59,716 nt of DNA. Source: a virus. The notes under the pieces were generated by a model. It had not been told where the DNA came from. It did no database searches and was given only the letters and a program-made list of their open reading frames with translations. Shown in pieces: positions 1-41,118 of this stretch (positions are counted from its first letter, which is position 1; every line of letters begins with the position of its first letter). The translations under genes and the position numbers were made by a program. The DNA lies in the IMG/VR virus record IMGVR_UViG_3300034092_001461, positions 1 through 59,716 of that record. The stretch is one strand, 5' to 3'.

Positions 1-82
1 TGCGGCACCTGGCGGAAATGCCACACAAGGCCCAAGTGGTGGTGGAACAGGTTATGGAAACAAAGGCGGAGACAACAGTCAG
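1..82 (+). repeat. 82-bp exact direct repeat, copy 1 (in glycine-rich gene)
   Basis: Bases 1-82 are identical to 1002-1083. It encodes the same segment (AAPGGNATQGPSGGG onwards) in both glycine-rich genes. Since it reaches the window edge, the true repeat may be longer on the left. It is a likely site for recombination between the two fibre genes, and also a likely breakpoint in a short-read assembly. Confidence 0.9.
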
Positions 83-445
83 GTTCCACCTTATTCTGGT
101 TCTGGAGGAGGCGGTGCAAGTTCTGCTGGTGCTGCTGGTGGTTCTGGCCGTGTTGCTCCTGGAGGTTCTGGTTTAGCATCTTCTATTTCTGGCTCTTCAA
201 TTACCTATGCTGGTGGTGGAGGTGGCGGCGGAGGCTCTAGTAACTCTGTTGCTGGTGGCTCTGGTGGCCCTGGTGGTGGTGGTGCTGGTGGTTTGCTTAA
301 CAATAACACTGGACAAATGAATGGTGCTAATGCAACTAACGGCTTAGGTGGCGGTGGCGGCGGTGGTGCTGGTGCAGCGCCACAAGATGGTGGCGCTGGT
401 GGTGCTGGAGGTCACGGCGTAGTTATTATTCGTTATCCTGTTTAG
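2..445 (+). CDS. Glycine-rich tail-tip/fibre protein, C-terminal part (truncated by window edge)
   Basis: The frame is open from the left edge to a TAG at 443-445, so the 5' part lies outside. The visible 147 residues are mostly Gly, Ala and Ser with poly-Gly runs, and end in GHGVVIIRYPV. The next gene has the same ending, so the two are paralogues. Glycine-rich proteins of this kind form receptor-binding tips on phage tail fibres; by analogy this is an adhesin. Its first 82 bases are identical to bases inside the next gene, and identity then breaks off into diverged sequence. The family is clear; the exact virion role is inferred. Confidence 0.75.
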   Translation, partial: AAPGGNATQGPSGGGTGYGNKGGDNSQVPPYSGSGGGGASSAGAAGGSGRVAPGGSGLASSISGSSITYAGGGGGGGGSSNSVAGGSGGPGGGGAGGLLNNNTGQMNGANATNGLGGGGGGGAGAAPQDGGAGGAGGHGVVIIRYPV

Positions 446-489: not shown

Positions 490-1452
490 ATGCCATTTAT
501 TAGTAGCGTAAGAGGTGCATACGGACCTCAAAGCCGTGGAGGTAGGGCAGGAAGTCTTCTTACCTCAACTGGTGGAACAATCACAACTGCTGGTGGCTAC
601 CGTATTCATACATTTAATTACACTGGTTCAGATCAAACATTTACTGCTGGCGGTGCTGGCAACGTTGAGGTATTAGTTCTGGCTGGTGGTGGCTCAGGTG
701 GGTCTAGAAACGCTGGTGCAAATCAAGGTGGCTCAGATGGCGGTGCTGGTGCTGGTGCTGGTGGATTAGTTTTACATACTTCAAGTGCTGTAACTGCTCA
801 AGCCTACACGGTGGGTGTTGGTGTTGGTGCTGCATTTACTGCTGGAAATACTCAATCGCCTGGAAACAATGGCGGAAACTCTACATTCAATAGCATCACT
901 GCATTAGGTGGCGGTGCTGGCGGTTGTGGCCCAGGTGGTCCAGTTGCTTTTGGTTTACCTGGCGGCTCTGGTGGTGGAGGCGGTGGCGGTGGGTCAACAC
1001 CTGCGGCACCTGGCGGAAATGCCACACAAGGCCCAAGTGGTGGTGGAACAGGTTATGGAAACAAAGGCGGAGACAACAGTCAGTCTCCTCCATTTACAGG
1101 TTCTGGTGGTGGCGGTGCTGGTGGCGCAGGTGCTGCTGGTGGTTCTGCTCGTGCTGGAACAGGTGGAGTAGGGCTGAGTAGTTCAATTTCTGGCTCTTCT
1201 GTTGGCTATGCTGGCGGAGGTTCTGCTGGTGGAGGAGGACCTTCTCACACGAATGGCGCTGCTTCAGTTGGTTTTGGTGGAGGCGCTGGTGGATTTTTTA
1301 ATGGCACTACCCCAAATGATGGCTATGCAGGAACAAATGGTTTAGGTGGAGGCGGTGGTGGTGGCCAAGGTACAACAGCAACTGCCCCTATTAGTGGTGG
1401 CGCTGGCGGTGCTGGCGGGCATGGCGTAGTTATTATTCGTTATCCTGTTTAA
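490..1452 (+). CDS. Glycine-rich tail-tip/fibre protein
   Basis: This 320-residue protein has a non-repetitive N-terminus (about residues 1-65, starting MPFISSVRG and containing GGYRIHTFNYTGSDQTF). A long Gly/Ala/Ser body with runs of up to seven or more glycines follows, and the conserved end is GHGVVIIRYPV. That layout is typical of glycine-rich domains in phage tail fibres, where variable loops between poly-Gly strands bind the host surface. An AG-rich Shine-Dalgarno-like stretch (about 472-482) precedes the ATG. The stop codon overlaps that of the convergent carbamoyltransferase gene. Together with its truncated upstream paralogue it forms a tandem fibre pair. Role as host-recognition adhesin is inferred from composition and layout. 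Confidence 0.75.
   Translation: MPFISSVRGAYGPQSRGGRAGSLLTSTGGTITTAGGYRIHTFNYTGSDQTFTAGGAGNVEVLVLAGGGSGGSRNAGANQGGSDGGAGAGAGGLVLHTSSAVTAQAYTVGVGVGAAFTAGNTQSPGNNGGNSTFNSITALGGGAGGCGPGGPVAFGLPGGSGGGGGGGGSTPAAPGGNATQGPSGGGTGYGNKGGDNSQSPPFTGSGGGGAGGAGAAGGSARAGTGGVGLSSSISGSSVGYAGGGSAGGGGPSHTNGAASVGFGGGAGGFFNGTTPNDGYAGTNGLGGGGGGGQGTTATAPISGGAGGAGGHGVVIIRYPV
1002..1083 (+). repeat. 82-bp exact direct repeat, copy 2
   Basis: Identical to 1-82. The flanking sequence diverges immediately after base 1083, so identity is confined to this block within otherwise related but diverged genes. This is the pattern expected of recent gene conversion or homologous exchange. Confidence 0.9.
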
Positions 1453-3113
1453 GAAATTAAATAATTAAGTTCTGGTAAGTATAAGTAGTCTATTTTAGAA
1501 CTATTGAGGGTGCTGATAGCATCTTCAATAGTTTCTACTATACAGTCTCCAGCAAGATTAAAAGAAGTGTTAAAAATTATTGGAACGTTTGTTATTTTAT
1601 AAAATTCTTCAATAAGTTTATAAAAGTTTTTATTTTGCTCTTTAGACACTGTTTGTACCCTACAAGTACCATCAACATGGGTTATTGCAGGTATAAATAA
1701 CTTTTTATCTTCTAAAACATTTACGGCATACATCATAAATGGAGACTCTTCTAAACTTCTCATATCAAACCATTCTTTGGCTTTTTCAACTAAAACAGAT
1801 CCAGCAAACGGCCTAAACCACTCTCTATTTTTTACTACATTAACTTTGTCTTTTCCATCAATGACACGAGGGTCAAAAAGAATACTTCTGTTACCTAGTG
1901 CCCTTGGGCCAGCCTCGGAAGACCCTTGATATATAGCAACAATTTTTTCTTCTGACAACAACTTTGCTACATAACTTGAAGATACATTCTTTTGTATAGT
2001 GTTTTGTGTAGCAACTTTTTCTACGTATTTTTTGTCATAATTATAGTTTGGACCATAGTATAAAGATTTTTGTTTTTGGATATTTGTACTTTTTGTTTCT
2101 GAGTGCCAAGCAAGTTTTGCAGCACCTAAAGCAGTCCCAGAATCACCAGAAATAGGTTCAATATATAAATTTATCTCTTTAGGTAAATCTAAAAGATATT
2201 CGTAGTTAGCAACGCAGTTATGGAAGAACCCACCTGACAAACAAATATTTTTAATATTTGTTTTTTCATACCACTCAAGAATTTGTTTTTTTACTTCACT
2301 TTGCGTTTCTTTTTGTAGTTTATAAGAAAAATCTGCTTTATCTTGAAAAGATTTTAACTTAGTGTAAGTTATTTTTCTTTTTTTCAGTGAAGATTTATCA
2401 TATACAAATAAATTTTTATTTATTCTTCCGTCTACATAGATAGGTGGTATATTTTTATTTTCTTTTCCATATGAAGACATACCCATAACTTTTCCCGCAT
2501 CTAAGCCATGGAATCCAAAAGTCTTAGCAGCATCCTCAAACGCTAAGGCTTCTCCATAATTATTTACTACAGTTGTCTTACCTACAGTAATCGGTTCTGT
2601 ATCAAACGAAACTGCAACTTCTTCATATAATTTTGTAAAGTTATTTGGGTACGAAGAAGAAAAAACAGACATTATCTGTCTACCAAAAGTTCCTTTTTGA
2701 AAAATAGGACTGTCTAAATATACCTCTGAACCCATTCCGTCTTTTACTATACATAGTGACTCTGAAAAGCCAGAAGAATAAAAAGAAGATGCAGCGTGAG
2801 TGAGGTGGTGTTCCATACTGTAGTTATAAACTTTTATATTATTATTAAAAAATGTTTTACCTAATCTACGTATAAATGTAGTGTAGATATCTGTGTCTTC
2901 AAAATACTCTCCAGGAACTAAAGGCCCGACTCCAGCAATTGCAACTACATCTACATGGTCTACATAGTCTTTTATTTTTGATAGAGCAAGGAAGGGATAC
3001 CAGTCATACTTAATGTTAGAAAGTCTTTCATTGTCTATATGAAAAAGAATTTCTCCATCTTTAATAAGGCATACTGAAGCATTATGGAATCTACTAACCC
3101 CAACAACAATCAT
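1449..3113 (-). CDS. NodU/TobZ-family carbamoyltransferase
   Basis: These enzymes transfer a carbamoyl group from carbamoyl phosphate, via carbamoyl adenylate, to a hydroxyl of a small molecule, sugar or modified base. The N-terminal half has the Kae1-like fold signature: MIVVGVSRFHNAS at the start, then the HxxxH metal site at residues 102-106 with D125 following. The C-terminal half has the hallmark GPRALGNRSIL near residue 400, a THVDGTCR motif and NTSFN near the end. At 554 residues the length fits the family, so it looks intact. It is last in a leftward three-gene run with two 2OG oxygenases, which could supply the hydroxyl it modifies. The substrate (DNA base, virion glycan or host glycan) cannot be told from sequence. 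Confidence 0.9.
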   Translation of the reverse strand: MIVVGVSRFHNASVCLIKDGEILFHIDNERLSNIKYDWYPFLALSKIKDYVDHVDVVAIAGVGPLVPGEYFEDTDIYTTFIRRLGKTFFNNNIKVYNYSMEHHLTHAASSFYSSGFSESLCIVKDGMGSEVYLDSPIFQKGTFGRQIMSVFSSSYPNNFTKLYEEVAVSFDTEPITVGKTTVVNNYGEALAFEDAAKTFGFHGLDAGKVMGMSSYGKENKNIPPIYVDGRINKNLFVYDKSSLKKRKITYTKLKSFQDKADFSYKLQKETQSEVKKQILEWYEKTNIKNICLSGGFFHNCVANYEYLLDLPKEINLYIEPISGDSGTALGAAKLAWHSETKSTNIQKQKSLYYGPNYNYDKKYVEKVATQNTIQKNVSSSYVAKLLSEEKIVAIYQGSSEAGPRALGNRSILFDPRVIDGKDKVNVVKNREWFRPFAGSVLVEKAKEWFDMRSLEESPFMMYAVNVLEDKKLFIPAITHVDGTCRVQTVSKEQNKNFYKLIEEFYKITNVPIIFNTSFNLAGDCIVETIEDAISTLNSSKIDYLYLPELNYLIS

Positions 3114-3137
3114 ATCTAGTACTGACTACTGATTAGA

Positions 3138-3812
3138 TTAATTTGTGTATTCAATGTAACTTTTGTTGGAAGCCCGTTGCGTAACAGAACTCTGAGTTGT
3201 AGAAGTATTTTTGTTAATAGTTCCTACTGACTCTCTACCATCATACTTAAAAGATGCGTTTGGACCATTTACATCTACATAATGAAGAAATGCTTGAACA
3301 TGAAAAGAGCCCTCTGGAGCATCAAAAGGGTCACGCCAATGGTCTAGTTCACAGCCGCGATATATAGCCATCTCTCCAGGCTTAAGCGAAATTGGAGTTC
3401 CATCTATATAAATAGGCCACGTATATCCTTTTTTATTTTTATAGTCATACTCGAAAGAAATAGTTAAAGAAACTTCACAAGAGGGTCTATCAAGATGATG
3501 GTCTAATTTATCTCCAGGATGGTACACACGATAATACGAATAGGTTGGGAACAACTTCAATCCAGTGTACTTTTCAATAGTAGGATGAAGAGATAAAAGC
3601 AATGTTTCCATTAACGGGTCAGCATACTTACTATGAGCACCAGGGACTTGTAGCCCTTCTGCTTCAGGACTGTATCTTTGGATTTCATCAAAAAGAGCGT
3701 ATTGCGTAACTAAGTCAACAGTTTCTTTAGGTAGCCCTGAATTTACAGCAACATATCTATCTTTAGTAAAAGCAGGAACTGAAGTACTTGCTGTTTTATG
3801 TATTTTTATCAT
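3138..3812 (-). CDS. 2-oxoglutarate/Fe(II)-dependent dioxygenase
   Basis: The protein has the double-stranded beta-helix signature: H106-x-D108 in LDHHLDRPS, then a distal His at 158 (GCELDHWRD). Together these form the iron triad of 2OG oxygenases, which hydroxylate substrates using O2 and 2-oxoglutarate. I set the start at the ATG at 3812 because GGAGAT lies just upstream, overlapping the stop codon of the preceding oxygenase gene; a longer in-frame reading to 3851 has no such site. The C-terminal 40 residues are Ser/Thr/Asn-rich and probably disordered. Proteins of this type are common in aquatic phages and their substrates are mostly unknown. Position next to a second oxygenase and a carbamoyltransferase suggests a shared pathway. 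Confidence 0.82.
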   Translation of the reverse strand: MIKIHKTASTSVPAFTKDRYVAVNSGLPKETVDLVTQYALFDEIQRYSPEAEGLQVPGAHSKYADPLMETLLLSLHPTIEKYTGLKLFPTYSYYRVYHPGDKLDHHLDRPSCEVSLTISFEYDYKNKKGYTWPIYIDGTPISLKPGEMAIYRGCELDHWRDPFDAPEGSFHVQAFLHYVDVNGPNASFKYDGRESVGTINKNTSTTQSSVTQRASNKSYIEYTN

Positions 3813-3820
3813 TGTATCTC

Positions 3821-4450
3821 CTACATCTGCATTGGTTGGTCTTGAGTCCAAGTTACTAAAGCATACTTAGTTCCACTAACCACAGGGTGAGCAATATGAG
3901 TATATGCGTAGTTTGATGGAAACAGTAAAAGCATTCCTGGTTCAGGTTTAATTTTTATTCCAAAATTAGTGAACTCTACATGACCGCCCTCATAATCTTT
4001 ATTAAGATATATGATTGCTGAGACCGACCTACGAGTAGATGTGTCCCCGTCATAGTGAGCCTTATATTCAGTCCCGCCTTTATATTTCAACATATTGTAA
4101 TCTTCGTGCCAAAGTTGCTCTTGTATTCCGTATCTTTTACGATACCCTTCTAAAGAAGCCATAAGTAAAACATACATCTGATTGTGAATATGTTCCATAA
4201 CTGGACTTCCAGTTTCCCTAGCAAAATAACTTACACCCATATGTAAATTAGTTCTTGCATTTTGATTTTTACCAAAACCTATAGTTGTTGCCTTACTCCA
4301 AAAAATCCCTGAACCAGCAGTGTTTACCTGACTCTCAACCATCTCTATTGTCTTTTCAGGGTCAGGCCAAGCATTCTCATAAATATCTATACAACCAGCA
4401 ACCGTCGTAGTGGGCTGTAAATCCCCTGGAAAAAATCTACCAATTGTCAT
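3821..4450 (-). CDS. Prolyl-4-hydroxylase-like 2OG-Fe(II) dioxygenase
   Basis: This is a 209-residue protein with a complete P4H-type core: H132-x-D134 (AHYDGD), SAIIYLN, the YEGGHVEF strand, KPEPGMLLLFPS, distal H188 and K195 in GTKYALV for 2-oxoglutarate binding. An in-frame ATG exists at 4483, but a strong AAGGAG sits directly before the ATG at 4450, so 4450 is the preferred start. It is the first gene of the leftward oxygenase/carbamoyltransferase run and probably transcribed from the divergent gap 4451-4545. The substrate could be protein, glycan or nucleobase. It resembles P4H-like phage enzymes more than the TET/JBP group, judged from motif spacing only. Confidence 0.88.
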   Translation of the reverse strand: MTIGRFFPGDLQPTTTVAGCIDIYENAWPDPEKTIEMVESQVNTAGSGIFWSKATTIGFGKNQNARTNLHMGVSYFARETGSPVMEHIHNQMYVLLMASLEGYRKRYGIQEQLWHEDYNMLKYKGGTEYKAHYDGDTSTRRSVSAIIYLNKDYEGGHVEFTNFGIKIKPEPGMLLLFPSNYAYTHIAHPVVSGTKYALVTWTQDQPMQM

Positions 4451-4510
4451 TTTTTCTCCTTTTCCTTGCTTCAATAGTATCACTTTATGTATAAAATACA
4501 GAGTTTTATT

Positions 4511-4545
4511 ACATAAGAGTGTCTTTATTTTGGTATAGTGACTCT
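4511..4545 (+). promoter_or_regulatory. Candidate promoter for a leaderless transcript
   Basis: TATAGT at 4534-4539 is a good -10 element. Exactly six bases separate it from the ATG at 4546, so transcription would begin at or next to the start codon. No Shine-Dalgarno sequence is present. The -35 region (about 4509-4516) is poor. Leaderless mRNAs are common in Actinobacteria. Confidence 0.4.
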
Positions 4546-4938
4546 ATGCCTTTTTTTAGAACTACTCACAATATTCTAAAAGCCCCCTGGGAACCCGAAT
4601 ATTTTGACCCTAATTGGATGAACTCTGACTCTTTAGTCTTACCTCCCAACCCTAAATGGCATTACGAAAGAGAAATGCAAATAGAAGATGTTGACATATG
4701 GGAAGTTTTATGGCAAGGTGGGGGTTCTTGGGGAGTTTATGCCGCTTGGTGTCCCTATGCAGAATTTTTTTTAGTCACAACAAACCCTAAATTTGGTGGA
4801 GTAGAGACTATGGAATACGAGACTTTTTATGGAAAAGGTGCACAAAAAAAATTAAAAAAAAGACTTAAAGAACTTAATATTCCATATGCTCAAAATAAAG
4901 TTTGGGTTGATGCTGAAGAAATGCATCTATACGAGTAA
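4546..4938 (+). CDS. Conserved-looking hypothetical protein, Trp-rich
   Basis: This 130-residue protein matches no family I recognise. It is rich in Trp, Tyr and Phe (for example YFDPNWMN, IWEVLWQGGGSW), has a basic Lys-rich stretch near residues 95-110 (AQKKLKKRLKE) and shows no signal peptide or membrane segment. The frame is also open from a GTG at 4519, but that would overlap the promoter-like TATAGT; I therefore chose the ATG at 4546 (starting MPFFRTTHN). It lies 34 bases before the glycosyltransferase gene on the same strand, so it probably belongs to that rightward mini-operon. Confidence 0.65.
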   Translation: MPFFRTTHNILKAPWEPEYFDPNWMNSDSLVLPPNPKWHYEREMQIEDVDIWEVLWQGGGSWGVYAAWCPYAEFFLVTTNPKFGGVETMEYETFYGKGAQKKLKKRLKELNIPYAQNKVWVDAEEMHLYE

Positions 4939-4972
4939 TATACTGTTCTACAGATTTAGTAAAGGGGTTTAG

Positions 4973-6043
4973 ATGAAAGTTGCTGTATATACAATTGCTC
5001 TCAACGAAGAGCAGTTTGTTGAGCGTTGGTACAACTCTGTAAAAGACGAGGCAGACTATTTGCTTATCGCTGACACGGGCTCAACGGATGGCACGGTTGA
5101 AAAAGCCCGTGCCCTAGGTATCAATGTTGTTTCTATTTGGGTAAAACCTTGGCGCTTTGATCAAGGCAGAAACGCATCTTTGGCTTTAGTTCCACCAGAT
5201 ATGGATTACTGCGTCCCGCTAGATATGGATGAAATTATGCTTCCAGGATGGCGTGCTGAACTTGAGAAAGCATTTGAAGCAGGAGCAACTCGTCCACGTT
5301 ACAACTACATCTGGAATTGGAATGATGATGGAACTCCAGGTCTTACCTTTGGTGGAGACAAGATTCACGCACGTCAAGGATATTTTTGGAAACATCCTGT
5401 ACATGAAATTTTAACTACAGATAGATTAAAAGAGGTTCAACATTGGACTGGTGCAACTATGGAGCATCACGCAGACAATACTAAATCTCGTGGACAATAT
5501 TTAGGGTTGCTCAAAGCATCGGTAGATGAAGGTCCTACAGATGATAGAAATGCTTTTTATTACGCTAGAGAGTTATTTTTCTACAACAAATTTACTGAAG
5601 CAACAGCAGAGTTCAAACGTCATTTGTCTCTTCCTAAAGCCCGTTGGGCACCAGAGCGTGCTGCCTCTATGCGCTACTTAGGAAAGATAAATAAAGAAGA
5701 AGCAGAGTTGTGGTTTACCTTAGCGGTAAGAGAAGCACCAGGCAGACGTGAGCCGCACATTGATTTGGCTAAACACTACTACGGCACTAGTGACTGGAAA
5801 CTTTGCTATGAGCACGCAAACATTGCTTTAGCAATAAAAGAAAAACCTTTAGAGTATCTCTGTGAGGCTGAAGCGTGGGGGTTTACTCCATATGATTTAG
5901 CATCGATATCTGCTTACAATTTGGGAATGTATAAAGAGGCGTATGAAAACGCTGTGAAGGCCCTTGAATTAGGACCTGAAAAAGATAAAGAAAGACTAAT
6001 AGCAAACCTATCCTTCTGTGAGGCAAAACTAAATGACAAATAA
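4973..6043 (+). CDS. Family 2 (GT-A) glycosyltransferase with C-terminal TPR-like region
   Basis: The first 110 residues are a typical GT2 nucleotide-sugar-binding domain: VAVYTIALNEE at the start, DTGSTDGT at 34-41, and the metal-binding DMDE at 84-87. The rest (about residues 180-355) is helical, with repeated AxxxxxxxAL segments like tetratricopeptide repeats. These often hold an acceptor or partner in such enzymes. AGGGG-like sequence (AAAGGGG) precedes the ATG. It would transfer a sugar to a protein, glycan or modified base. It overlaps the following methyltransferase-like gene by 11 bases, so the two are translationally coupled and probably act in one pathway. Confidence 0.88.
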   Translation: MKVAVYTIALNEEQFVERWYNSVKDEADYLLIADTGSTDGTVEKARALGINVVSIWVKPWRFDQGRNASLALVPPDMDYCVPLDMDEIMLPGWRAELEKAFEAGATRPRYNYIWNWNDDGTPGLTFGGDKIHARQGYFWKHPVHEILTTDRLKEVQHWTGATMEHHADNTKSRGQYLGLLKASVDEGPTDDRNAFYYARELFFYNKFTEATAEFKRHLSLPKARWAPERAASMRYLGKINKEEAELWFTLAVREAPGRREPHIDLAKHYYGTSDWKLCYEHANIALAIKEKPLEYLCEAEAWGFTPYDLASISAYNLGMYKEAYENAVKALELGPEKDKERLIANLSFCEAKLNDK

Positions 6044-6617
6044 TGACTATCCAAACTGGTTTACTACTAACGGTGCTTCCCAAAACTTTGCATCTTACCT
6101 ATCTAAGTTCAAAGATGTAAAAGTAGACTTTCTTCAATTAGGAGCCTACACAGGAGATGCCACCAAGTGGCTCTTTGAGAATGTTCTTACTCATCCAGAG
6201 TCAACGCTTACAGATGTTGATACCTGGGAAGGCTCTGATGAAGAAGAACATAAAAAGATGAACTGGCAAAGCGTTGAGTCTGTCTATGATGAGAAAAACT
6301 CCCAGTGGCTTGGCGAAGGCAGACTCATTAAAAAGAAAATGACTACAGATGAGTTTTTTGCCTCCAACGACAAACAATTTGACTTTGTTTATGTAGATGC
6401 TGACCACACAGCAATGGCTGTTCTCAAAGATGGAATTCATGGGTATGACTATCTAAAAGTCAATGGAATTCTTGCTTTTGATGATTACAGATGGGGCGCT
6501 CATCTACCAGTAAAAGATAGACCTCAGGCTGGTGTAGATGCTTTTAGAGTTGCTCATTGGAATAAGACATCGCTCCTTGAGGCTAATCAACAGGTTTGGT
6601 TGAAGAAGATTTCCTAG
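6033..6617 (+). CDS. Class I SAM-dependent methyltransferase-like protein (Methyltransf_24 type)
   Basis: This 194-residue protein has a Rossmann-type pattern: FLQLGAYTGDATKWL as the SAM loop (about residues 34-48), LTDVDTWEG as the acidic strand-2 end, and FDFVYVDADHT (about 112-122) followed by a hydrophobic helix and GILAFDDY. VYVDADH and the later DDY match sugar- or macrolide-type O-methyltransferases of the TylF/CmcI kind. Coupling to the glycosyltransferase upstream suggests it methylates a glycan or sugar precursor. Its 3' end overlaps the convergent WhiB gene by 35 bases. The precise substrate is unknown. Confidence 0.75.
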   Translation: MTNNDYPNWFTTNGASQNFASYLSKFKDVKVDFLQLGAYTGDATKWLFENVLTHPESTLTDVDTWEGSDEEEHKKMNWQSVESVYDEKNSQWLGEGRLIKKKMTTDEFFASNDKQFDFVYVDADHTAMAVLKDGIHGYDYLKVNGILAFDDYRWGAHLPVKDRPQAGVDAFRVAHWNKTSLLEANQQVWLKKIS

Positions 6618-9114: not shown

Positions 9115-10137
9115 TTAGATTGTGTATGTTTTTTGGAGCAATACATTGCCCAAATTTTCCTTGACCTTAGACCAAGAAGGCAATGTTTCTATGTATAACT
9201 CTTTTTGCCGTCTTGCTAGTTCAAGTCTTTTTTCTGGCGTTAGTTCTTCTATCGCGGCAGGAAGTATTGACCACTCACTACCTAGATGAACTGTCTGACG
9301 CCAGTCAGTAGCCACAGGGACGCCCACAAAGAGCGCCTGAGACAGGCTAGGAAGCCACCAAGGGTTTCCATCTTTGTAGACTGAGATAAGGGCTCCAATG
9401 GAGTTATCTAAGCGTTCTAAGATGTCTTCGTTTGCTTCCCATTTACTTTGTCTGTAATTTACTACAGGCTTAGTAATATTCTCAAATGTCCTCAGCGCCC
9501 ACTTACTTTTTTGGCTGTCTGAGCACCAGTAATCACCATCAACTAATTTAGTTCTGTAGCGTTGAATTTCTAAAAGCACAGAATCTGGAGAAACTAGAAA
9601 CAACTTATTGTTGTCTATGGTTGGTATGTATTTAGAAATAACCTCTGGCTTAGACCAAGGGTAAGCAGGAATAATAGTCTTTGGCCAAGCCTCTGTGAAT
9701 AACTTAGTAAGCCCAGAAAAGATATTGGCATAGTTTTCTTGCTCTAAAGCCTGATTGTATTCACGCTTTTTTGAATAAAAAGGTTTTACTAAAGATTGTG
9801 GGTTGAGGTATATTTCTCTAAGTCCAGCGTAAATTTTATGTGGGTCAGGGGTATCTACAAATAGAGAAAGGTTGCCTAACTCCGATGCGTGTTTGATGAC
9901 GGACAATGCGCCATAAATTCTGTGTGAGGTTACATTTGTTGGTGAAGAAACGCCAACTATTACTGAGTCAAACTGAGACAAATACTCTTTATCAAACGTT
10001 ACTGATGGGCTATCCCAAACAACTTCACAACCCAACTCCGTGAGGGCCATATTGATAATTCCAGCAAAGGAAGGTGTCTTTTCATTGGAGTATGTAGATG
10101 CGTGTGATGCTGTACATCCAGTAAGAAATACTTTCAT
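9115..10137 (-). CDS. Possible GT-B-type glycosyltransferase
   Basis: This 340-residue protein begins MKVFLTGCTASH. A Rossmann-like first half has hydrophobic strands at FDSVIVGVSSPT and LSLFVDTPDPHKIYAGL, and a second half carries GNPWWLPSLSQALFVGVPVATDW followed by a helical tail. A C-terminal 'sequence-G-P-hydrophobic' element of this kind recalls the donor site of GT-B glycosyltransferases, but I see no decisive catalytic motif. AAAGGAAGG precedes the ATG. A long inverted repeat sits between it and the ssDNA-binding gene. If it is a glycosyltransferase it could act with the carbamoyltransferase/oxygenase block. Other nucleotide-binding folds are possible. Confidence 0.45.
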   Translation of the reverse strand: MKVFLTGCTASHASTYSNEKTPSFAGIINMALTELGCEVVWDSPSVTFDKEYLSQFDSVIVGVSSPTNVTSHRIYGALSVIKHASELGNLSLFVDTPDPHKIYAGLREIYLNPQSLVKPFYSKKREYNQALEQENYANIFSGLTKLFTEAWPKTIIPAYPWSKPEVISKYIPTIDNNKLFLVSPDSVLLEIQRYRTKLVDGDYWCSDSQKSKWALRTFENITKPVVNYRQSKWEANEDILERLDNSIGALISVYKDGNPWWLPSLSQALFVGVPVATDWRQTVHLGSEWSILPAAIEELTPEKRLELARRQKELYIETLPSWSKVKENLGNVLLQKTYTI

Positions 10138-11526: not shown

Positions 11527-12449
11527 TCGCTTCCTGTTTTGTCTGTGTCGTAATACGCATAAGGATCTTTTTCCTCATACGAATCGCTAAGTGCTTGTTC
11601 AACGGCGCTTCCGTCATCAAACATTGGGCATATAGCGAAAAATTGGCATTTCCACTTACAATCTCTACTGGCTCGTGGATATACATGGAACGCAGGATTT
11701 TCTCCAGCGTCTAGTGCTGTTCTGATTCTCATTAGGTCAGCAATAGTTCCGTGAATGCGTTGCCAGAAAGAACGCATAGTGAAAATATTGTGCCTAATCT
11801 CAACGTGGTCATAGAAAGGTGGCTTTGCTGCCGCAGTTCTACGTACCTTCTTTAGGAGAGTAAAGATTCCACCCTCTGAGCGTTCTTTCTCATCAAACTT
11901 TGAAGATTCAAGAAGCATATAAGTCATAACCTGCTCATTCATATGAGCCATGCTTGAGAACTCTGACAGTGAACCACCAACAGTTTTGAAATCGCGGAAC
12001 AAGCGAACTCCATCTGCCTTACGGCGAACACGCATATCAAGTTTTCCCTGAAGTTCTACAGCACCATTGAACAATGGAGCAACAATCTTTTCTTCAGTTG
12101 AAATCATTTCAAGTTCAGCATCAATTCCGTTTTCTTCAACCCACTGCTCATAACCTTCAAGCATGATGCGTCCAAGTTCGGCTTCTGTCTCTAAATCATT
12201 GACATCTCTAAAGTCGGCAAGAAGAAGTTGCTTATCTTTCTCAACTAGTTCTGAGTGAGCCTGTAGGAGAGGCGTGCCTTGTGCGTAGTGAGCATCTAAG
12301 GCTGCGTGGATACGAGTTCCAAGTGCTAGCGCACCAGTCATATCTTTTTGCTTTGGCTGTAAGCGACGATAGTAATTTAGCCACCAACGTCTGCGACAAT
12401 CTTTGAATGTTTGTAACTCTGAGTTTGAAAGTCTAATGATTTCACTCAT
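11523..12449 (-). CDS. RecB/Cas4-like PD-(D/E)XK nuclease with Fe-S cysteines
   Basis: This 308-residue protein carries the Cas4/RecB exonuclease pattern: H48 in LGTRIHAALD, D138 in QGKLD, and D153-x-K155 in RDFKT. It also has the four cysteines expected for a [4Fe-4S] pin: C18 near the N-terminus and C264, C268, C274 near the C-terminus. It probably resects DNA ends to make single strands for the neighbouring Sak4-like ATPase and ssDNA-binding protein. Its start overlaps the end of the SNF2 helicase gene by four bases, so the recombination genes form one translationally coupled operon. Confidence 0.9.
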   Translation of the reverse strand: MSEIIRLSNSELQTFKDCRRRWWLNYYRRLQPKQKDMTGALALGTRIHAALDAHYAQGTPLLQAHSELVEKDKQLLLADFRDVNDLETEAELGRIMLEGYEQWVEENGIDAELEMISTEEKIVAPLFNGAVELQGKLDMRVRRKADGVRLFRDFKTVGGSLSEFSSMAHMNEQVMTYMLLESSKFDEKERSEGGIFTLLKKVRRTAAAKPPFYDHVEIRHNIFTMRSFWQRIHGTIADLMRIRTALDAGENPAFHVYPRASRDCKWKCQFFAICPMFDDGSAVEQALSDSYEEKDPYAYYDTDKTGSE

Positions 12450-14257
12450 AACTTACCCGCCTTGTCATCTTGTAGAAGTTTGAGCAACTGGTCTTTGTCC
12501 CGAACAATCTGCTCAAAGTTGTCGGCTTTAGTTTCAAGAACTTGAATCACACGTTCTTCAATTGTTCCTTCAGTTACATAGTCAGTAATCACAATTGAGT
12601 CGTGTATCTCGCTCCCGATTCTATGAACTCTATCTAGCACTTGCTTATGGTCTACAAGAGACCACGGCCTCTGAAGCATAATCAAGCGACGAGCAGCAGT
12701 CAAGGTAATACCTACACCACCTGCTTGTGCTGTAAACAAAATCCACTTTATTGCACCAGATTGAAAATCGTCAATAGCCTTCTGACGCTCATCCTCATCT
12801 TGGTCTCCAGTGATAAGACCGTGAGGAATCTTTTTCTTTGTCATCTCTGCGCTGAGAAGATTGATAAGTTGCTTTGATACAGCAGAAACAGCAACAGAGT
12901 CATCTCCAAAGTCTCCATTGTCAATATCATCCATCAACGCTTCAACTTTGCAAGAAGGCGAATCAAGAATGGCTTTAATTTCTCCTGTAGATTCGTTAGT
13001 GCTCAAAGTTGCGTAGGAACTAGCAAACTGTAGAAGTCTAATTGTTTGTGTCAAAACACTAGGCGCTGTTAGCGTATCGCCAGAGCCAAGTTCAGCAATC
13101 ATTAGGTCACGCATTTGCTCGTAAGCCTTCTTCTGCTTAGTTGACATCTCAACATCTCGGCGTTCATTGATAACTGGTGGAAGCCAAGGAAGCACTACTT
13201 TCTTGAGCATACGACGCATAACTGGGTTTACAGATTTGTAGAACTCATCTTGCATCGCTGGCTTTACGCCAATAACCATCATTCCGCCAAAGGCGTTGAG
13301 CATCGTGTCAACCATTCGGTCAATCCACTTTGTCTTGCTTGGCCAATCCTTTGGAGAAATCCAATGAAGAATTGACCAAAGGTCTACAACATTATTGGCA
13401 ATAGGTGTTCCAGTAAGTGCAAAACGAATCTTTGAGTCTCCACTAGCAGACCAGAGAGCACGACTTTGCTTTGATTTAGGGTCTTTAGAACGGTGAATCT
13501 CATCTGCAATAACGGCTTTGAAATCAATATGATTGAGTTCACGAAGATGTACTTCGCAACGTGTTTCGCTAATCTTTTCATCTTGTCCACCGCAAGCACG
13601 GCAACGAGTCAGAGCAACAGAGCCATAAGGTGCTAGTCGTGAGTGGGTTCTAAGAGATTCCCAGTTGATAATAAATACTTGCGCTGGGTCTTCAAACTGA
13701 CGTTTGCGTTGAACCGCAGAGCCTTTGATTACCTGTGTTGGAACCTCAGGCCACCACTTCGTAAATTCTCTAGCCCAGTTCTTTTTCAAAGTGTTAGGGC
13801 AGACAATCAAAACTGGAAAGATTTCTTCTCCTCTTTCGTGGAGCATCTTGAGGGCACGGATAGCCTGTGCTGTTTTACCTAAGCCAGGCTCATCGGCTAG
13901 TAGGGCTCGTTTGGCTGTTGCTAAAAACTCAACGCCAGCCCTTTGGTGAGGGAAAAGGATTTCATCGCCTTCAAAGGTTTCTAACTCTCTAAAAGCATTA
14001 GAAGGGTTGATTCTGGTGGTTACTTCATTAGCAGCCCATTCAGATAAGGCTGGTCCAATAACTAGGTCATTGCGGAATGTAGAGCGTAGAGCGAGACAGG
14101 TTGTCCAACTTAGGGGAACTCTCCAAACCTGGTCAGAAGGGCTCCAGGAGGCTCCTGGAAGGCTCTTACAGAGTTCTTTGAGGCGCCACTCAGCGGTAAT
14201 AAGGATGTGTTCCCCACCGTTATCTATATCTACAGATACTGTCACTACAACCCCCAA
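12446..14257 (-). CDS. SNF2-family DEAD/DEAH helicase
   Basis: This 603-residue protein has an intact superfamily 2 core: FPHQRAGVEFL (Q-like motif, about 102-112), Walker A EPGLGKT at 124-130, DEIH at 252-255, LTGTP at 281-285, and in the second lobe QAGGVGITLTAA and QVLDRVHRIG. The N-terminal 90 residues resemble a HARP-like annealing-helicase accessory region (W-x-x-S...W-R-V-P). A Cys-rich insertion (C219xxC222 ... C234xxH237) lies between Walker A and DEIH and may bind zinc. It probably remodels forks or anneals DNA during phage replication. The TTG at 14257 is a possible start; a GTG four codons later after a G-rich site is an alternative. Confidence 0.9.
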   Translation of the reverse strand: MGVVVTVSVDIDNGGEHILITAEWRLKELCKSLPGASWSPSDQVWRVPLSWTTCLALRSTFRNDLVIGPALSEWAANEVTTRINPSNAFRELETFEGDEILFPHQRAGVEFLATAKRALLADEPGLGKTAQAIRALKMLHERGEEIFPVLIVCPNTLKKNWAREFTKWWPEVPTQVIKGSAVQRKRQFEDPAQVFIINWESLRTHSRLAPYGSVALTRCRACGGQDEKISETRCEVHLRELNHIDFKAVIADEIHRSKDPKSKQSRALWSASGDSKIRFALTGTPIANNVVDLWSILHWISPKDWPSKTKWIDRMVDTMLNAFGGMMVIGVKPAMQDEFYKSVNPVMRRMLKKVVLPWLPPVINERRDVEMSTKQKKAYEQMRDLMIAELGSGDTLTAPSVLTQTIRLLQFASSYATLSTNESTGEIKAILDSPSCKVEALMDDIDNGDFGDDSVAVSAVSKQLINLLSAEMTKKKIPHGLITGDQDEDERQKAIDDFQSGAIKWILFTAQAGGVGITLTAARRLIMLQRPWSLVDHKQVLDRVHRIGSEIHDSIVITDYVTEGTIEERVIQVLETKADNFEQIVRDKDQLLKLLQDDKAGKL

Positions 14258-36378: not shown

Positions 36379-39300
36379 CTAGGTAAGTAACCGAAGTAAC
36401 TTAGCCATCTGACTAGAAATCTCTGATTGGCTGTAATAGTCGCCGCCAGACATAAAGGTGTTCAAATCCTTTGTGGCAATAGCGGCGTCATCCTTGCCAA
36501 TCTTGGCCTCTACCCGTGTAATCATGTCTTCCATAAGTTGTTGTAGCGCAGGAGGGATATCGCTAAAACGAATCTTTTGGGCGTCCTGACCAAAGGCAAA
36601 GGGAAGGTTAGCAATAACTTTTCCAAGTTCACCAGCACTACTTCTGACATTTTCTAAAGATTCAGAATTTAGTGCTCCAGTGTCCAAGCGGTCAATAATG
36701 CCTAGAAGGTCACCCGCTGCCTTGGCTGCGCCAGCGTAGTTTCCAGCATTATCTAAGTTTTCTGCTTGCTCAATCTTTTTTAGAGCAGCGTCAGCGCCAG
36801 CATCACCTAAGTCTAATTTCAACCGGGCAAGAACTTGTCGAAATTTCCCTGCGGCATCGCGGGGTTGGGTTTTAGGTGTGTATTTGGCACGTTCTGCATC
36901 TGCTTGTTTCTTGCCCTTAACTTCTTTTTTTAGTATGTCAAGTTCTTCATCGGTCAGACCTTCTAGGTCTTTCTCGGTGATTTCGGCTGCGGCAACAACT
37001 GTTTTAAGTGCTTCAATTTTGGTTCTCATACTGGCAATTAAAGTGTCTGAAGTGTCAGATGCTTCTTTCCAATTTTCTGGAATTAAGTCTGTCTTCTCAA
37101 GTTGACGGGCACGCTTTACGATGTGGCGACGAACTAGTCCACGTTTTCCTGGCTTTGAACGTCCGTATGCCTGAACAGCATTTCTTAAGTCAGAAACATT
37201 TCTGATTGGGAATGAGCCATCTGGAAGTGCTTTCTTTTCGCCAGCAAGTTTTTCACGCATCTTGCGGGAAATCACTGCTAGTTCAGTATCAGCATCTTCT
37301 AGTGTCTGAAGCATATAAGCGCTGTCAGCATTTTTTGTTTCTGCAATTCTGCTTGAAAGTTCTGAAGCCTTGATAGCAGCAGTTATTGTCTCAATGCGAG
37401 ACTTAGCATCTTGTGCAGCAGCAACCATAGGTGCTTCAAGTTTGTCAATACGCTCATTTAATTCACGTAGTGGGTCATGCTTGAGTTGAGCAAGAACATT
37501 TGCTCCAGCAGCAACAAGAGCCATTACCTGACCTGATGCAACACGAGCACGAGCAATTGGGAAGCCAGGAACGTTTACTTGGCAAACTGCTACAAGTTCA
37601 AGTGAACCCTTGATTGGGCGCCAGTCACCAGATGGTGCTGAAGCACGAAGGGAACGAATTTGCTCTGGAGTTGTTCCAGGGCGAAGTGCTCCTGAAACCC
37701 AGATGCCATAAGCATCTTCTCCTGCGTGAACATCTGCGATAGCAGACGCTGTGTCGTCATAGTGACGAACTGCTTCTGAAGCACTGGCTTCTAGAGAAGC
37801 GTGTCCTCCAGCCAATGTTAATTGTCCAACTGGAACATCGACACTTTCCTCAGTACGAACTACGCCAGTATGAAAATAGGCATAGTTACTCTTACTGCGT
37901 GGTGGTCGTGTTCCAAAAGACATTCCAATGTGGTCAACGTGCCAAGCGGCAATGTGACCAAAAACTTTTCCTTCATCAGTTACCGTCAGAGCGGTTGGCT
38001 TGTTTAAGCCAGGGTTATCAAACCACTCCTTAGGCGGATGTACTGGAATAGCACCAGCAACAATTCCGCAAGCGACGAGTGCTGAAGCATCGAGTGGATT
38101 TACTCCCTCGACGTACACTCCATCTTGAATCACTTCTTCCTCCTGGTCTCTCCCACTCTCATCAACGAGTTCAATAGTGCACTCTTGATAAGCGGGTTTA
38201 GGGACAAGCGTTACAGCCATAACTCTTGCCTTTGTTATCTTCATTTTACCTGCTCCGACTTTGCCGTCGGATTCTTTTTCTGAAGCATTTGTTTCTTCAT
38301 TTGCTTCAAACATATCTAAGTCAGCAGAAACTCCACGGATAAATCCGCCACGAACGAGTCTTTCCGCTTCTTTTCCGTACTCACCTGTGTCAAAATAGCC
38401 ATAGGCATTTCCTATGCCATTTTCTACTCTTTCCATCTTGGTAATTTTTCCTATAACAACTGATCCGGAATGGCCTTCGCCAGTCTTGATTTGCCATAAG
38501 AAAGGTAGTGGTAGTTCTCTCATTGAGATAGCCCCTGGAACAAATTTACGTCCATCGCCAGACTCTATGGCTTCAGGGATAACTAGAGGAATATAAAACT
38601 GTGCCCCAACTCCAGGCTCTTCCATAGAAGCACCAGCAGTCAAAACACGATTCTTAGCGTCAGCAATTCTTGCTTTCATAATTACTGAAGCAAGAACTGC
38701 CTCTGATGGAATGACAAAATCATTACTAAAAGTATTCTTTGCTTTTCCTTTTTTACCAAACAGTTGACGATGCTCTTTATCGCCTGTCCACATACCTGTG
38801 GCTTCTTTATGGCGTAAGGCGCAATAGCCCTTAGAACGAGGTCCCATATATTTAGAAAGTTGACGAACACAGCGTGTCCAGTCTCCTGGAGTATTCCAAC
38901 GAATCTTTGCTGCGCCTTTTCCATATAACCAGTAGCGACGAAGTTTTTCAGCGTTGCCACGGTTTCTATCAGCACCACCTGCTGCCATCAAAGCAATGAT
39001 TCTTGAATCAATATTGCTGATAGAGGCAGTTGCTGGTTTTACAGAATCAATTTGGTCTAATACCAAAGCAAGGTTGTCATTATCTAAAACAATAACTGGT
39101 GGAGGAGTAGGACTGTTTAGGTCATTGAGAATCTGCTCATCTTTTTCCCACTTGCCTGGCTTACGCTTATAAGTCATTGGAGTAGTTGTTTTATTAGTAG
39201 CAGGTACTAATGAAACTAATTCCATAACAGCCTGAGGGTCATCTGGAGAAACAATTGCCATATAGATAGGAGGAACATCAGATGTGTCTGGAGTAAGTTC

Positions 39301-41118
39301 TACCTCTGCTGCTTCAGCAGAAGAAGTAAATCCTTTTGCTGGCTGTGTTAACCAAGGCACTGGTGTAAGACCAGGAGATGGTTTCAAATCTTTTGCTGGT
39401 TTATATGCTTCAACATCGGAAGGTTTTACTGGTGTCTTAGAAATATCTGGTCGGTACCAAATTGCATTTGGATTAGAAGTCTTTCCATCTTTTACTACTG
39501 TCTTCTCTAAAAATGCACGTAAAGATGGGTCGTTATAGGCATTAGGTGTTTTACGAAGTTCGGTTGGAGCATCTGGAGAAGATGCTGGAGTTTGTGCTGC
39601 TTGTCTAAGGTCTACTGCCCAGGGGGAGAAATCACTAAGAATTGTTTTCACTTGATTTACCTGCAACTGTGGAAGTTTTGCTGTAAGAGTTGCTGCTGGT
39701 CTATCAATAGGAGTGCGAGGCTCTCCAAGAATATTTTTAGTTAACTGCTTAGTTGAAACAGCAGACTGAACCTGAGGCATTGGTTTGAAAGTGTCTACTG
39801 ACTCTGTTGTATTAGCAGGTACATCTACATAACTACCATTTGTAAGTTTTACTTTTACGCTTTGACTTTCTGGATTTATTGACTCGATAGTTCCCGTGTA
39901 TTCAGGGTTTCCACCAATAACAACTTTTCCACCAGCCTTAGCAAACTTGCCCATTTTGTCACGAACCTGACCACGAGCCTTTTCTGAGCGCTCTTCTGGG
40001 GTGTAGTTTCCATCTTGATTTGTTGGTGCGCCACTTGATGGTGCTTCACCTGCGGCAGTTAGAGAATCATCTACTTCTGAATATTCTTCATACTCACTAT
40101 AATCAGTTTCATCGTATTCAACTTCGTCTACTAAATCCCAGTCGACGCCATCCATCTCATCAACAAATAGTTGAGACTCTTCTGGCTCAATTTGAGAAAC
40201 ATAAACTGCTTTGAAAGGGTCTGCTTCAAAGAGACCAGAAATAATTACTGCTGTTTTGGAATCTATAGGCAAGTGTAGTTTTGATACATTGTCATAAGCA
40301 TCGTCAAGAGACTTATCGTAGGTTTCAAAGTCGTGATTTATATTTCCTAAATCTTCCCACATAGCATCGTCCCAAACAAAGACAGAGCCATCTGGATTTA
40401 CTTTATAAAGACGGTCAATCCCTGAACCATCTAAACGAACACGCATATAAAATTGAGGTGCCATTTCTTCTGGCATAACTTCTGCTTCAATAAATGAGTT
40501 AAGGTCAACTGACTCTGGCTTAGCGTAGTCAGACATGACATACTCGAAAGAGGCGGTAATAGAGTTAGATTGGGCTTTTCTATTTTCACGATTTACAATT
40601 GCTGTAGCCCAAGACTTAGCAGCATCCCCGCCCCACAGTGCCCAAGCGATACGTCCGTTGCTTGGATAGTTTTCTTGTCCAGGCTTGTAGCCTTTGCCTT
40701 TTTTATCTACTTCATGGCGTGGAAAATATTTAGCAATATGACGAATTTTACGAATACCAATTTGTCCACCACGAGCAAGAGTGCGAGCAGTGTTTAGACC
40801 GACTGGAGTTCCGCCACGCTTTTCTTCCTTACGCCATTCCAATGCTCGTTTTGCTTCGGCCTGAACTGATTTAGGAATTGTGTATAAGCGGTCATTGTTG
40901 GAAAAAACTTTAATATCAAGGTCTGTTGTAGCAGCAACAGCAAGTTCAAAAGGGATAGAAGATTCTGGTTTTGTTTGGTCGCCATCAGGTATGAAAGATG
41001 CGACCATAGAGTCAGCATCACCTACAGAGCATACGAGTTTTGTTTGTTCGTCAACAATTACGGCTTTGCTATCGGCAACGAATAGAACCTCATTGCCACT
41101 GCGACCAATAAATTGCAC
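36379..41118 (-). CDS. Capsid maturation protease embedded in a 1579-residue polyprotein
   Basis: The protease core lies at about residues 830-1010: DGRKFVPGAISM, GEGHSGSVVIGKI with the likely catalytic His near 880, and IRGVSADLDMF with the likely nucleophile Ser near 933. It matches actinophage prohead proteases of the S78/U35-like group. The following part (about 1030-1190: VFGHIAAWHVDH, HYDDTASAIADVHAGEDAYGIWVSGALRPG, VNVPGFPIARAR) is the usual companion region. Around these lie an N-terminal region (about 80-175), a KOW-like strand (GKVVIGG), disordered linkers and a C-terminal coiled region with FPIRNVSDLRNAVQAYGR. [S]-[I/L]-T-A-[A/S] at 186-190 and 352-356 and VLTAGA near 827 may be self-cleavage sites. 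GTG start with GGAG upstream. Confidence 0.88.
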   Translation of the reverse strand: MQFIGRSGNEVLFVADSKAVIVDEQTKLVCSVGDADSMVASFIPDGDQTKPESSIPFELAVAATTDLDIKVFSNNDRLYTIPKSVQAEAKRALEWRKEEKRGGTPVGLNTARTLARGGQIGIRKIRHIAKYFPRHEVDKKGKGYKPGQENYPSNGRIAWALWGGDAAKSWATAIVNRENRKAQSNSITASFEYVMSDYAKPESVDLNSFIEAEVMPEEMAPQFYMRVRLDGSGIDRLYKVNPDGSVFVWDDAMWEDLGNINHDFETYDKSLDDAYDNVSKLHLPIDSKTAVIISGLFEADPFKAVYVSQIEPEESQLFVDEMDGVDWDLVDEVEYDETDYSEYEEYSEVDDSLTAAGEAPSSGAPTNQDGNYTPEERSEKARGQVRDKMGKFAKAGGKVVIGGNPEYTGTIESINPESQSVKVKLTNGSYVDVPANTTESVDTFKPMPQVQSAVSTKQLTKNILGEPRTPIDRPAATLTAKLPQLQVNQVKTILSDFSPWAVDLRQAAQTPASSPDAPTELRKTPNAYNDPSLRAFLEKTVVKDGKTSNPNAIWYRPDISKTPVKPSDVEAYKPAKDLKPSPGLTPVPWLTQPAKGFTSSAEAAEVELTPDTSDVPPIYMAIVSPDDPQAVMELVSLVPATNKTTTPMTYKRKPGKWEKDEQILNDLNSPTPPPVIVLDNDNLALVLDQIDSVKPATASISNIDSRIIALMAAGGADRNRGNAEKLRRYWLYGKGAAKIRWNTPGDWTRCVRQLSKYMGPRSKGYCALRHKEATGMWTGDKEHRQLFGKKGKAKNTFSNDFVIPSEAVLASVIMKARIADAKNRVLTAGASMEEPGVGAQFYIPLVIPEAIESGDGRKFVPGAISMRELPLPFLWQIKTGEGHSGSVVIGKITKMERVENGIGNAYGYFDTGEYGKEAERLVRGGFIRGVSADLDMFEANEETNASEKESDGKVGAGKMKITKARVMAVTLVPKPAYQECTIELVDESGRDQEEEVIQDGVYVEGVNPLDASALVACGIVAGAIPVHPPKEWFDNPGLNKPTALTVTDEGKVFGHIAAWHVDHIGMSFGTRPPRSKSNYAYFHTGVVRTEESVDVPVGQLTLAGGHASLEASASEAVRHYDDTASAIADVHAGEDAYGIWVSGALRPGTTPEQIRSLRASAPSGDWRPIKGSLELVAVCQVNVPGFPIARARVASGQVMALVAAGANVLAQLKHDPLRELNERIDKLEAPMVAAAQDAKSRIETITAAIKASELSSRIAETKNADSAYMLQTLEDADTELAVISRKMREKLAGEKKALPDGSFPIRNVSDLRNAVQAYGRSKPGKRGLVRRHIVKRARQLEKTDLIPENWKEASDTSDTLIASMRTKIEALKTVVAAAEITEKDLEGLTDEELDILKKEVKGKKQADAERAKYTPKTQPRDAAGKFRQVLARLKLDLGDAGADAALKKIEQAENLDNAGNYAGAAKAAGDLLGIIDRLDTGALNSESLENVRSSAGELGKVIANLPFAFGQDAQKIRFSDIPPALQQLMEDMITRVEAKIGKDDAAIATKDLNTFMSGGDYYSQSEISSQMAKLLRLLT

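Follow-up and report, generated by a model that had tools for sequence, protein, structure and literature searches.

Enzymes of the NodU family of O-carbamoyltransferases carbamoylate sugars. Glycine-rich adhesins occur in phages, for example S16 gp38 with its polyglycine-rich tip, which the fibre described here would resemble in sequence type and for which we know of no tailoring enzymes.

In cyanophages and pelagiphages, 2-oxoglutarate (2OG) oxygenases, carbamoyltransferases and halogenases have for 15 years been read as auxiliary metabolic, DNA repair or secondary metabolism genes (PMC3037559, PMC7824862, PMC9146016). Cyanophage papers name aspartate carbamoyltransferase (pyrBI) (PMC3037559, PMC9146016, PMC10436341), and a cyanophage cluster with carbamoyltransferases, a halogenase and 2OG oxygenases, that of S-SSM6a, was interpreted by Iyer et al. 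as serving secondary metabolite synthesis or capsule decoration (PMC7824862). A phage-type 5-hydroxymethylcytosine carbamoyltransferase has been proven (MetaGPA, PMC8670742); it belongs to the same superfamily as the enzyme considered here and is also phage-encoded, and its hydroxyl group is supplied by a partner enzyme. For the halogenase VirX1, no natural pathway is given in a review table (PMC8407142). None of these enzyme families is new, and their genes have been catalogued one by one as auxiliary genes; no paper linking them to a tail fibre was found in the open-access literature.

The phage and its fibre-proximal locus

The stretch analysed, hereafter the window, is the whole of IMG/VR record IMGVR_UViG_3300034092_001461, which is linear, comprises 59,716 bases and may be a fragment. 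Its gene content is siphovirus-like (tape measure, distal tail, portal and head genes), and its replication genes, which encode a DNA polymerase, a helicase, an exonuclease and a Sak4-like protein, form a block. A megablast search of its first 25 kb against phage records gave no match at the DNA level. At the protein level, the isolate Actinomycetia phage DSL-LC01 shares the glycosyltransferase (GT2, 63% identity), helicase (76%), Sak4-like protein (78%) and WhiB (57%), and since the window carries a WhiB gene (PF02467) and this backbone matches that of DSL-LC01, an actinobacterial host is likely.

Table 1. Features at the left end of the window
Feature	Position	Strand	Basis and remarks
Partial tandem copy of the glycine-rich fibre gene, upstream	2..445	+	Open 5' end at contig end; fibre-model match
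Glycine-rich fibre protein, 320 aa	490..1452	+	PF21722 Gly_rich_2 E=5.6e-07; phrog_2295; proposed substrate
O-carbamoyltransferase CT, NodU/CmcH-type, 554 aa	1449..3113	-	Pfam, PHROG; last gene of operon
OxB, P4H-fold 2OG oxygenase, ~224 aa	3138..3812	-	Fold, triad, start site; ORF opens at 3851
OxA, P4H-type 2OG oxygenase, ~209 aa	3821..4450	-	PF13640, fold, start site; ORF opens at 4483
139-aa protein	4519..4938	+	No Pfam/PHROG match
GT2-type glycosyltransferase	4973..6043	+	PF00535 Glycos_transf_2 1.6e-07, phrog_13126; backbone gene, outside cassette
Class I SAM methyltransferase (MT)	6033..6617	+	PF13578 Methyltransf_24 1.9e-12; backbone gene

The five enzymes that the first-pass annotation had placed in one block at 1449-6617 (the carbamoyltransferase, two oxygenases, GT2 and MT) are all intact open reading frames. 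The protein next to them is composed of 35% glycine and 4.7% proline and qualifies as a glycine-rich phage fibre by its PF21722 domain adjoining tail-fibre genes, its relatives likewise standing beside tail-fibre PHROGs; a GXY scan listed no collagen-like repeats in the window. The 139-aa gene, absent from the first-pass list, adjoins the fibre gene in loci with a carbamoyltransferase, a halogenase or phrog_7084-type genes alike, and so accompanies the fibre whatever the cassette.

Two P4H-like oxygenases and a carbamoyltransferase

OxA, OxB and CT form one minus-strand operon, whose distal end abuts the 3' terminus of the fibre gene. OxA likely starts at the ATG at 4450, preceded by AAGGAG, and OxB at the ATG at 3812, with a ribosome-binding site that overlaps the stop codon of OxA. 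OxA matches 2OG-FeII_Oxy_3 (PF13640) at E=1.6e-15, and its predicted fold (pLDDT 85) resembles PHD2, algal P4H and bacterial P4H with Z ~20; H143 and D145 are invariant among its homologues and H196 is nearly so. OxB has no Pfam family (no match at E<=1), and its predicted fold (pLDDT 79) resembles bacterial P4H, SnoN and PHD2 with Z ~17, while H119, D121 and H171 are invariant among divergent homologues. Its R173 is also invariant, at a spacing from H171 unlike that of the basic 2OG-binding residue of P4H. OxA can thus be assigned to the P4H type by Pfam family, HxD...H triad and fold, and OxB by triad and fold; the ferrochelatase label of OxB in PHROG was rejected, its best solved-structure matches being 2OG oxygenases. 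The first half of phrog_3531 matches OxB and the second half OxA, which suggests that natural OxB/OxA fusions exist.

The triad and the fold (Z 17-20) are shared with prolyl 4-hydroxylases such as PHD2, algal P4H, the bacterial enzyme whose structure was solved with EF-Tu and the viral collagen P4H of PBCV-1, at about 20% identity or less, and the likeness may extend to the substrate. Peptide hydroxylases are matched by both predicted folds, and the natural-product enzyme SnoN ties at the top for OxB, so that more than one kind of substrate is compatible with a P4H fold. The earlier impression that both oxygenases look P4H-like is borne out. No TET fold is among the best 50 structure rows for OxA or OxB, an absence that in itself carries no weight.

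CT contains both domains of the NodU/CmcH family (Carbam_trans_C, E=1.8e-59; Carbam_trans_N, 3.8e-23; PF02543/PF16861) and matches phrog_1601 at E=2e-160. The closest solved chains are NovN (E=1e-47), GdmN and TobZ. Across an alignment with seven homologues, H10, H102, H103, H106, D125, D324 and the GPRALGNRSI segment are invariant, and CT thus shares with NodU, CmcH, TobZ, GdmN and NovN the conserved His/Asp residues and the GPRALGxRS motif; it differs from them in belonging to a phage fibre-linked clade. This family assignment speaks against the published readings of such genes as auxiliary metabolism (PMC3037559, PMC9146016, PMC10436341), in which a carbamoyltransferase would serve pyrimidine synthesis and the oxygenases 2OG/nitrogen control or DNA repair: CT is not the aspartate carbamoyltransferase named in those papers, and the genes follow the fibre locus. 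A role of this kind is extremely improbable.

DNA as a possible target

An oxygenase and a carbamoyltransferase could also act in succession on DNA, the oxygenase making 5-hydroxymethylcytosine and CT converting it into 5-carbamoyloxymethylcytosine. Such a route has a precedent in the proven phage-type enzyme (PMC8670742), and OxA and OxB show some similarity to Tet-like chains, weak in both E value (NgTet1, E=0.27; another Tet-like chain, E=0.19) and score, the Tet_JBP model giving a sub-threshold 15 bits against a cut-off of 34.9, so that neither protein qualifies as TET/JBP. Carbamoyltransferases do occur with DNA-modifying enzymes in two records that served as positive controls, one with a true TET (L015, 2e-28) and one with a C5-methyltransferase (L028, 1.4e-55), both of which have split carbamoyltransferases.

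The window differs from these cases and from the MetaGPA enzyme. As the first-pass annotation had stated, there is no C5-methyltransferase or thymidylate-synthase-like gene, PF00145 and PF00303 having no match in the whole record, and the wider look for base-modifying genes that it proposed gave no match to PF00303 or PF00145 and none above threshold to PF12851 in these 59,716 bases, which may be a fragment; neither a dCMP hydroxymethylase nor a TET partner is present in the record. The same holds for the searched relatives of the OxA/OxB module. A TET search of thirteen small carbamoyltransferase records had no match, but its controls had none either, which makes it uninformative. Carbamoyltransferases linked to TET or C5-methyltransferase form a separate clade in the N-domain tree (support 98), with 26-29% identity to the N domain of CT, which therefore does not group with DNA-modification-linked enzymes. 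The operon, moreover, adjoins the fibre gene, away from the replication genes. Modification of DNA is thus very unlikely.

The operon travels with one fibre clade

An OxA-type gene lies <=3 kb from OxB in 76 of 80 loci, while in a set chosen by carbamoyltransferase this is true of 13 of 80 carbamoyltransferases. All three genes occur together in L004, L009, L018, L029, L052-54, L212 and L264, and in the cultured cyanophages S-SSM5, S-CAM8 and S-MS29. The independent contig L212 has a layout identical to that of the window (glycine-rich fibre, convergent CT-OxB-OxA and 139-aa gene) at 52-73% protein identity. In the window, CT and the fibre gene are convergent and share the few bases around the CT stop. 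A like overlap, again convergent in the three cyanophages, joins the 3' end of the carbamoyltransferase gene there and in L052-54 to a fibre gene, which belongs to the PHROG and Pfam family of the window fibre (PF21722, with E=7.8e-18 for L052).

A single clade of the fibre tree (support 98) contains the fibres of the window, L212, L264, L008 and the cyanophages, each of them accompanied by CT and OxA/OxB, and in the tree of the carbamoyltransferase N domain the window, L212, L264 and the cyanophages again fall in one clade (support 97). Because the operon sits behind the same fibre clade in T4-like cyanophages too, fibre and enzymes move together between a siphovirus and T4-like myoviruses. 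This agrees with the earlier suggestion that a position beside the fibre genes favours surface modification.

The operon is a swappable cassette

The clearest example of an exchange is the contig L220, which shares its backbone with the window (55-96% identity overall; GT2 83%, MT 68%, WhiB 89%, SSB-like protein 96%, Sak4-like protein 93%), and at the position of the operon it has two unrelated phrog_7084-type proteins instead of OxA-OxB-CT. Its fibre is 45% identical to that of the window and contains 1.3% proline against 4.7%. Across contigs of this phage group, behind the same fibre family, a halogenase with phrog_7084-type proteins is found in L214, L217, L218, L223 and L236, phrog_7084-type proteins without a halogenase in L215, L220, L245 and L248, and several 2OG oxygenases in L231. 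The halogenases of these relatives are tryptophan halogenases, and in DSL-LC01 the order is collagen-annotated fibre genes, tryptophan halogenase, GT2 and WhiB. OxA-OxB-CT is a swappable cassette on one phage backbone.

The idea that five enzymes hydroxylate, carbamoylate, glycosylate and methylate one target does not survive this comparison. L220, in which OxA-OxB-CT is replaced, has kept both GT2 and MT, and GT2 also remains in L214, L251 and DSL-LC01. L220 and DSL-LC01 rule the two genes out as cassette members; therefore only the three minus-strand genes form a unit. The same observation weakens the reading in which host surface glycans are the target of the enzymes acting with GT2 and MT, perhaps as a barrier to superinfection: GT2 and MT do adjoin the cassette and sugars are a known target of the carbamoyltransferase family, but the two genes are unlinked to it and the P4H-fold oxygenases best match peptide hydroxylases. 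We regard this reading as improbable.

In cyanophage Syn10 the exchangeable locus contains a characterised halogenase, CPUG_00131 being VirX1 (matched to PDB 6qgm over 530 residues). VirX1 lies behind glycine-rich proteins, with phrog_7084-like, 2OG-oxygenase and OxB genes, and the locus differs from that of the window in that a halogenase stands in the place of CT.

Fibre proline tracks the oxygenases

In an exploratory set of 24 fibres, proline was higher in those with OxA/OxB downstream (7 vs 17, p=0.0012). With the rules of the test fixed beforehand, new loci gave medians of 5.9% with OxA/OxB (n=32) and 3.1% for the others (n=21; p=0.00065), and where new loci had been retrieved with the fibre as the only query, the two groups did not overlap (4.9-7.9% vs 2.2-3.8%, p=0.003). 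Per locus, proline was the strongest of the 20 residues (p=4e-8), non-enzyme ORFs of the loci showed no proline difference (p=0.9), and the effect was unchanged when GC was added to the analysis, so that GC is not its cause. Corrected with a tree built from proline-masked fibre sequences, the effect was 3.1 points (p=1e-9). Among independent pairs on all branches, 7 of 9 go in this direction (p=0.016 by the Wilcoxon test, 0.18 by the sign test); few branches are well supported, with only 2 such pairs on them, and the independence of the cases is accordingly uncertain. Sampling is uneven, OxB having been the route to many of the oxygenase-positive loci. The fibres of Syn10 run counter to the trend, with 2.2-2.6% proline and OxB and OxA-like genes further downstream.

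Pro-Gly is mildly enriched in the fibres (233 observed, 206 expected), too mildly for a strict collagen-type X-Pro-Gly motif, which was discarded. An association of halogenase with fibre tryptophan was also dropped (p=0.038 in the first set, p=0.77 in the new loci); the failure of this parallel prediction counts against the fibre reading.

The proline association bears as well on the proposal made for the S-SSM6a cluster (PMC7824862). NovN and GdmN, the closest solved relatives of CT, serve antibiotic synthesis, as would be expected if the cassette made a secondary metabolite or decorated a capsule. Yet it has no scaffold-making enzymes, its three genes follow a fibre clade between unrelated phages, and fibre proline tracks the oxygenases, and such a role is unlikely.

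Proposed function and significance

We consider that OxA-OxB-CT is probably a swappable set of tailoring enzymes whose substrate is the glycine-rich tail-fibre protein encoded next to it, and that it acts by hydroxylation and then carbamoylation. As the cassette travels with the fibre and is swapped in close relatives, amino acids of the fibre, and not DNA, are probably what is decorated. The first-pass annotation had held a glycan or tail-protein target to be equally likely as DNA; that estimate is too low, because the clade to which CT belongs, its joint movement with a single fibre clade and the link to proline all favour the fibre over DNA.

OxA and OxB, as 2OG/Fe(II) oxygenases, would add hydroxyl groups to fibre side chains, with prolines in the glycine-rich domain as the most likely sites, and CT would move a carbamoyl group from carbamoyl phosphate/ATP onto the new hydroxyl, giving for instance O-carbamoyl-hydroxyproline. 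The modified tip may then have a changed receptor-contacting surface or stability. The parts of this scheme differ in strength: the fibre is quite probably the substrate, the chances that proline is the hydroxylated residue are evenly balanced, and action of CT on the OxA/OxB product is a somewhat more tentative proposal. We infer both the substrate and the order of enzyme action, and the association evidence is computational.

More broadly, it is possible, though we advance it tentatively, that phages chemically diversify their tail-fibre adhesins with interchangeable tailoring enzymes encoded at one locus behind a glycine-rich fibre and passed on with it, as one unit, among siphoviruses and T4-like cyanophages. 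The interchangeable set would comprise proline hydroxylases with a carbamoyltransferase, tryptophan halogenases, and phrog_7084/DUF6065-like proteins, each adding side-chain chemistry to the tip. If so, the native substrate of VirX1 would be the fibre or a neighbour of the fibre. The link to the fibre gives a prediction at the level of a residue, proline, and if it is true, phage adhesins would bear post-translational chemistry that is invisible in sequence alone, with consequences for host-range prediction and for the making of recombinant fibres.

Variants of the cassette and other genes of the window

In L264, a single fibre gene precedes a double arrangement: the genes for the two P4H-fold 2OG oxygenases and the O-carbamoyltransferase (OxA-OxB-CT), then OxB and OxA once more as a pair. 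Two 139-aa-type genes also lie behind this fibre. In L011-L015 and L028, the N and C parts of CT are separate, the C part sharing 56-71% identity with the window CT and the N part only 24-29%. In Cyanophage Syn10, Gly-rich proteins precede the halogenase VirX1, which has another halogenase as a neighbour, along with one phrog_7084-like gene and multiple 2OG oxygenases.

Coordinates of the features discussed
Feature	Location	Strand	Remark
VirX1	L276 (Cyanophage Syn10) 11986-13575		characterised viral halogenase
Double enzyme arrangement	L264 8001-13898
340-aa protein	window 9115-10137	-	replication block
1579-aa ORF	window 36379-41118	-	portal/head-maturation matches over part of length
3136-aa ORF	window 42192-51602	-

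The 340-aa protein has no match in Pfam, PHROG or PDB. A hypothetical protein of phage DSL-LC01 is 32% related to it and adjoins UDP-galactopyranose mutase and glycosyltransferase genes, the latter product being 22% related to the window protein, which is possibly a divergent glycosyltransferase. Both giant ORFs look like fusions or polyvalent proteins.

In phage annotation, phrog_2954 and phrog_3531 are labelled 'ferrochelatase', though they are 2OG oxygenases related to OxA/OxB, and the likewise related phrog_274 is labelled 'DNA endonuclease V'; one published genome paper names the cyanophage NodU-type CT pyrBI. All three labels look wrong.
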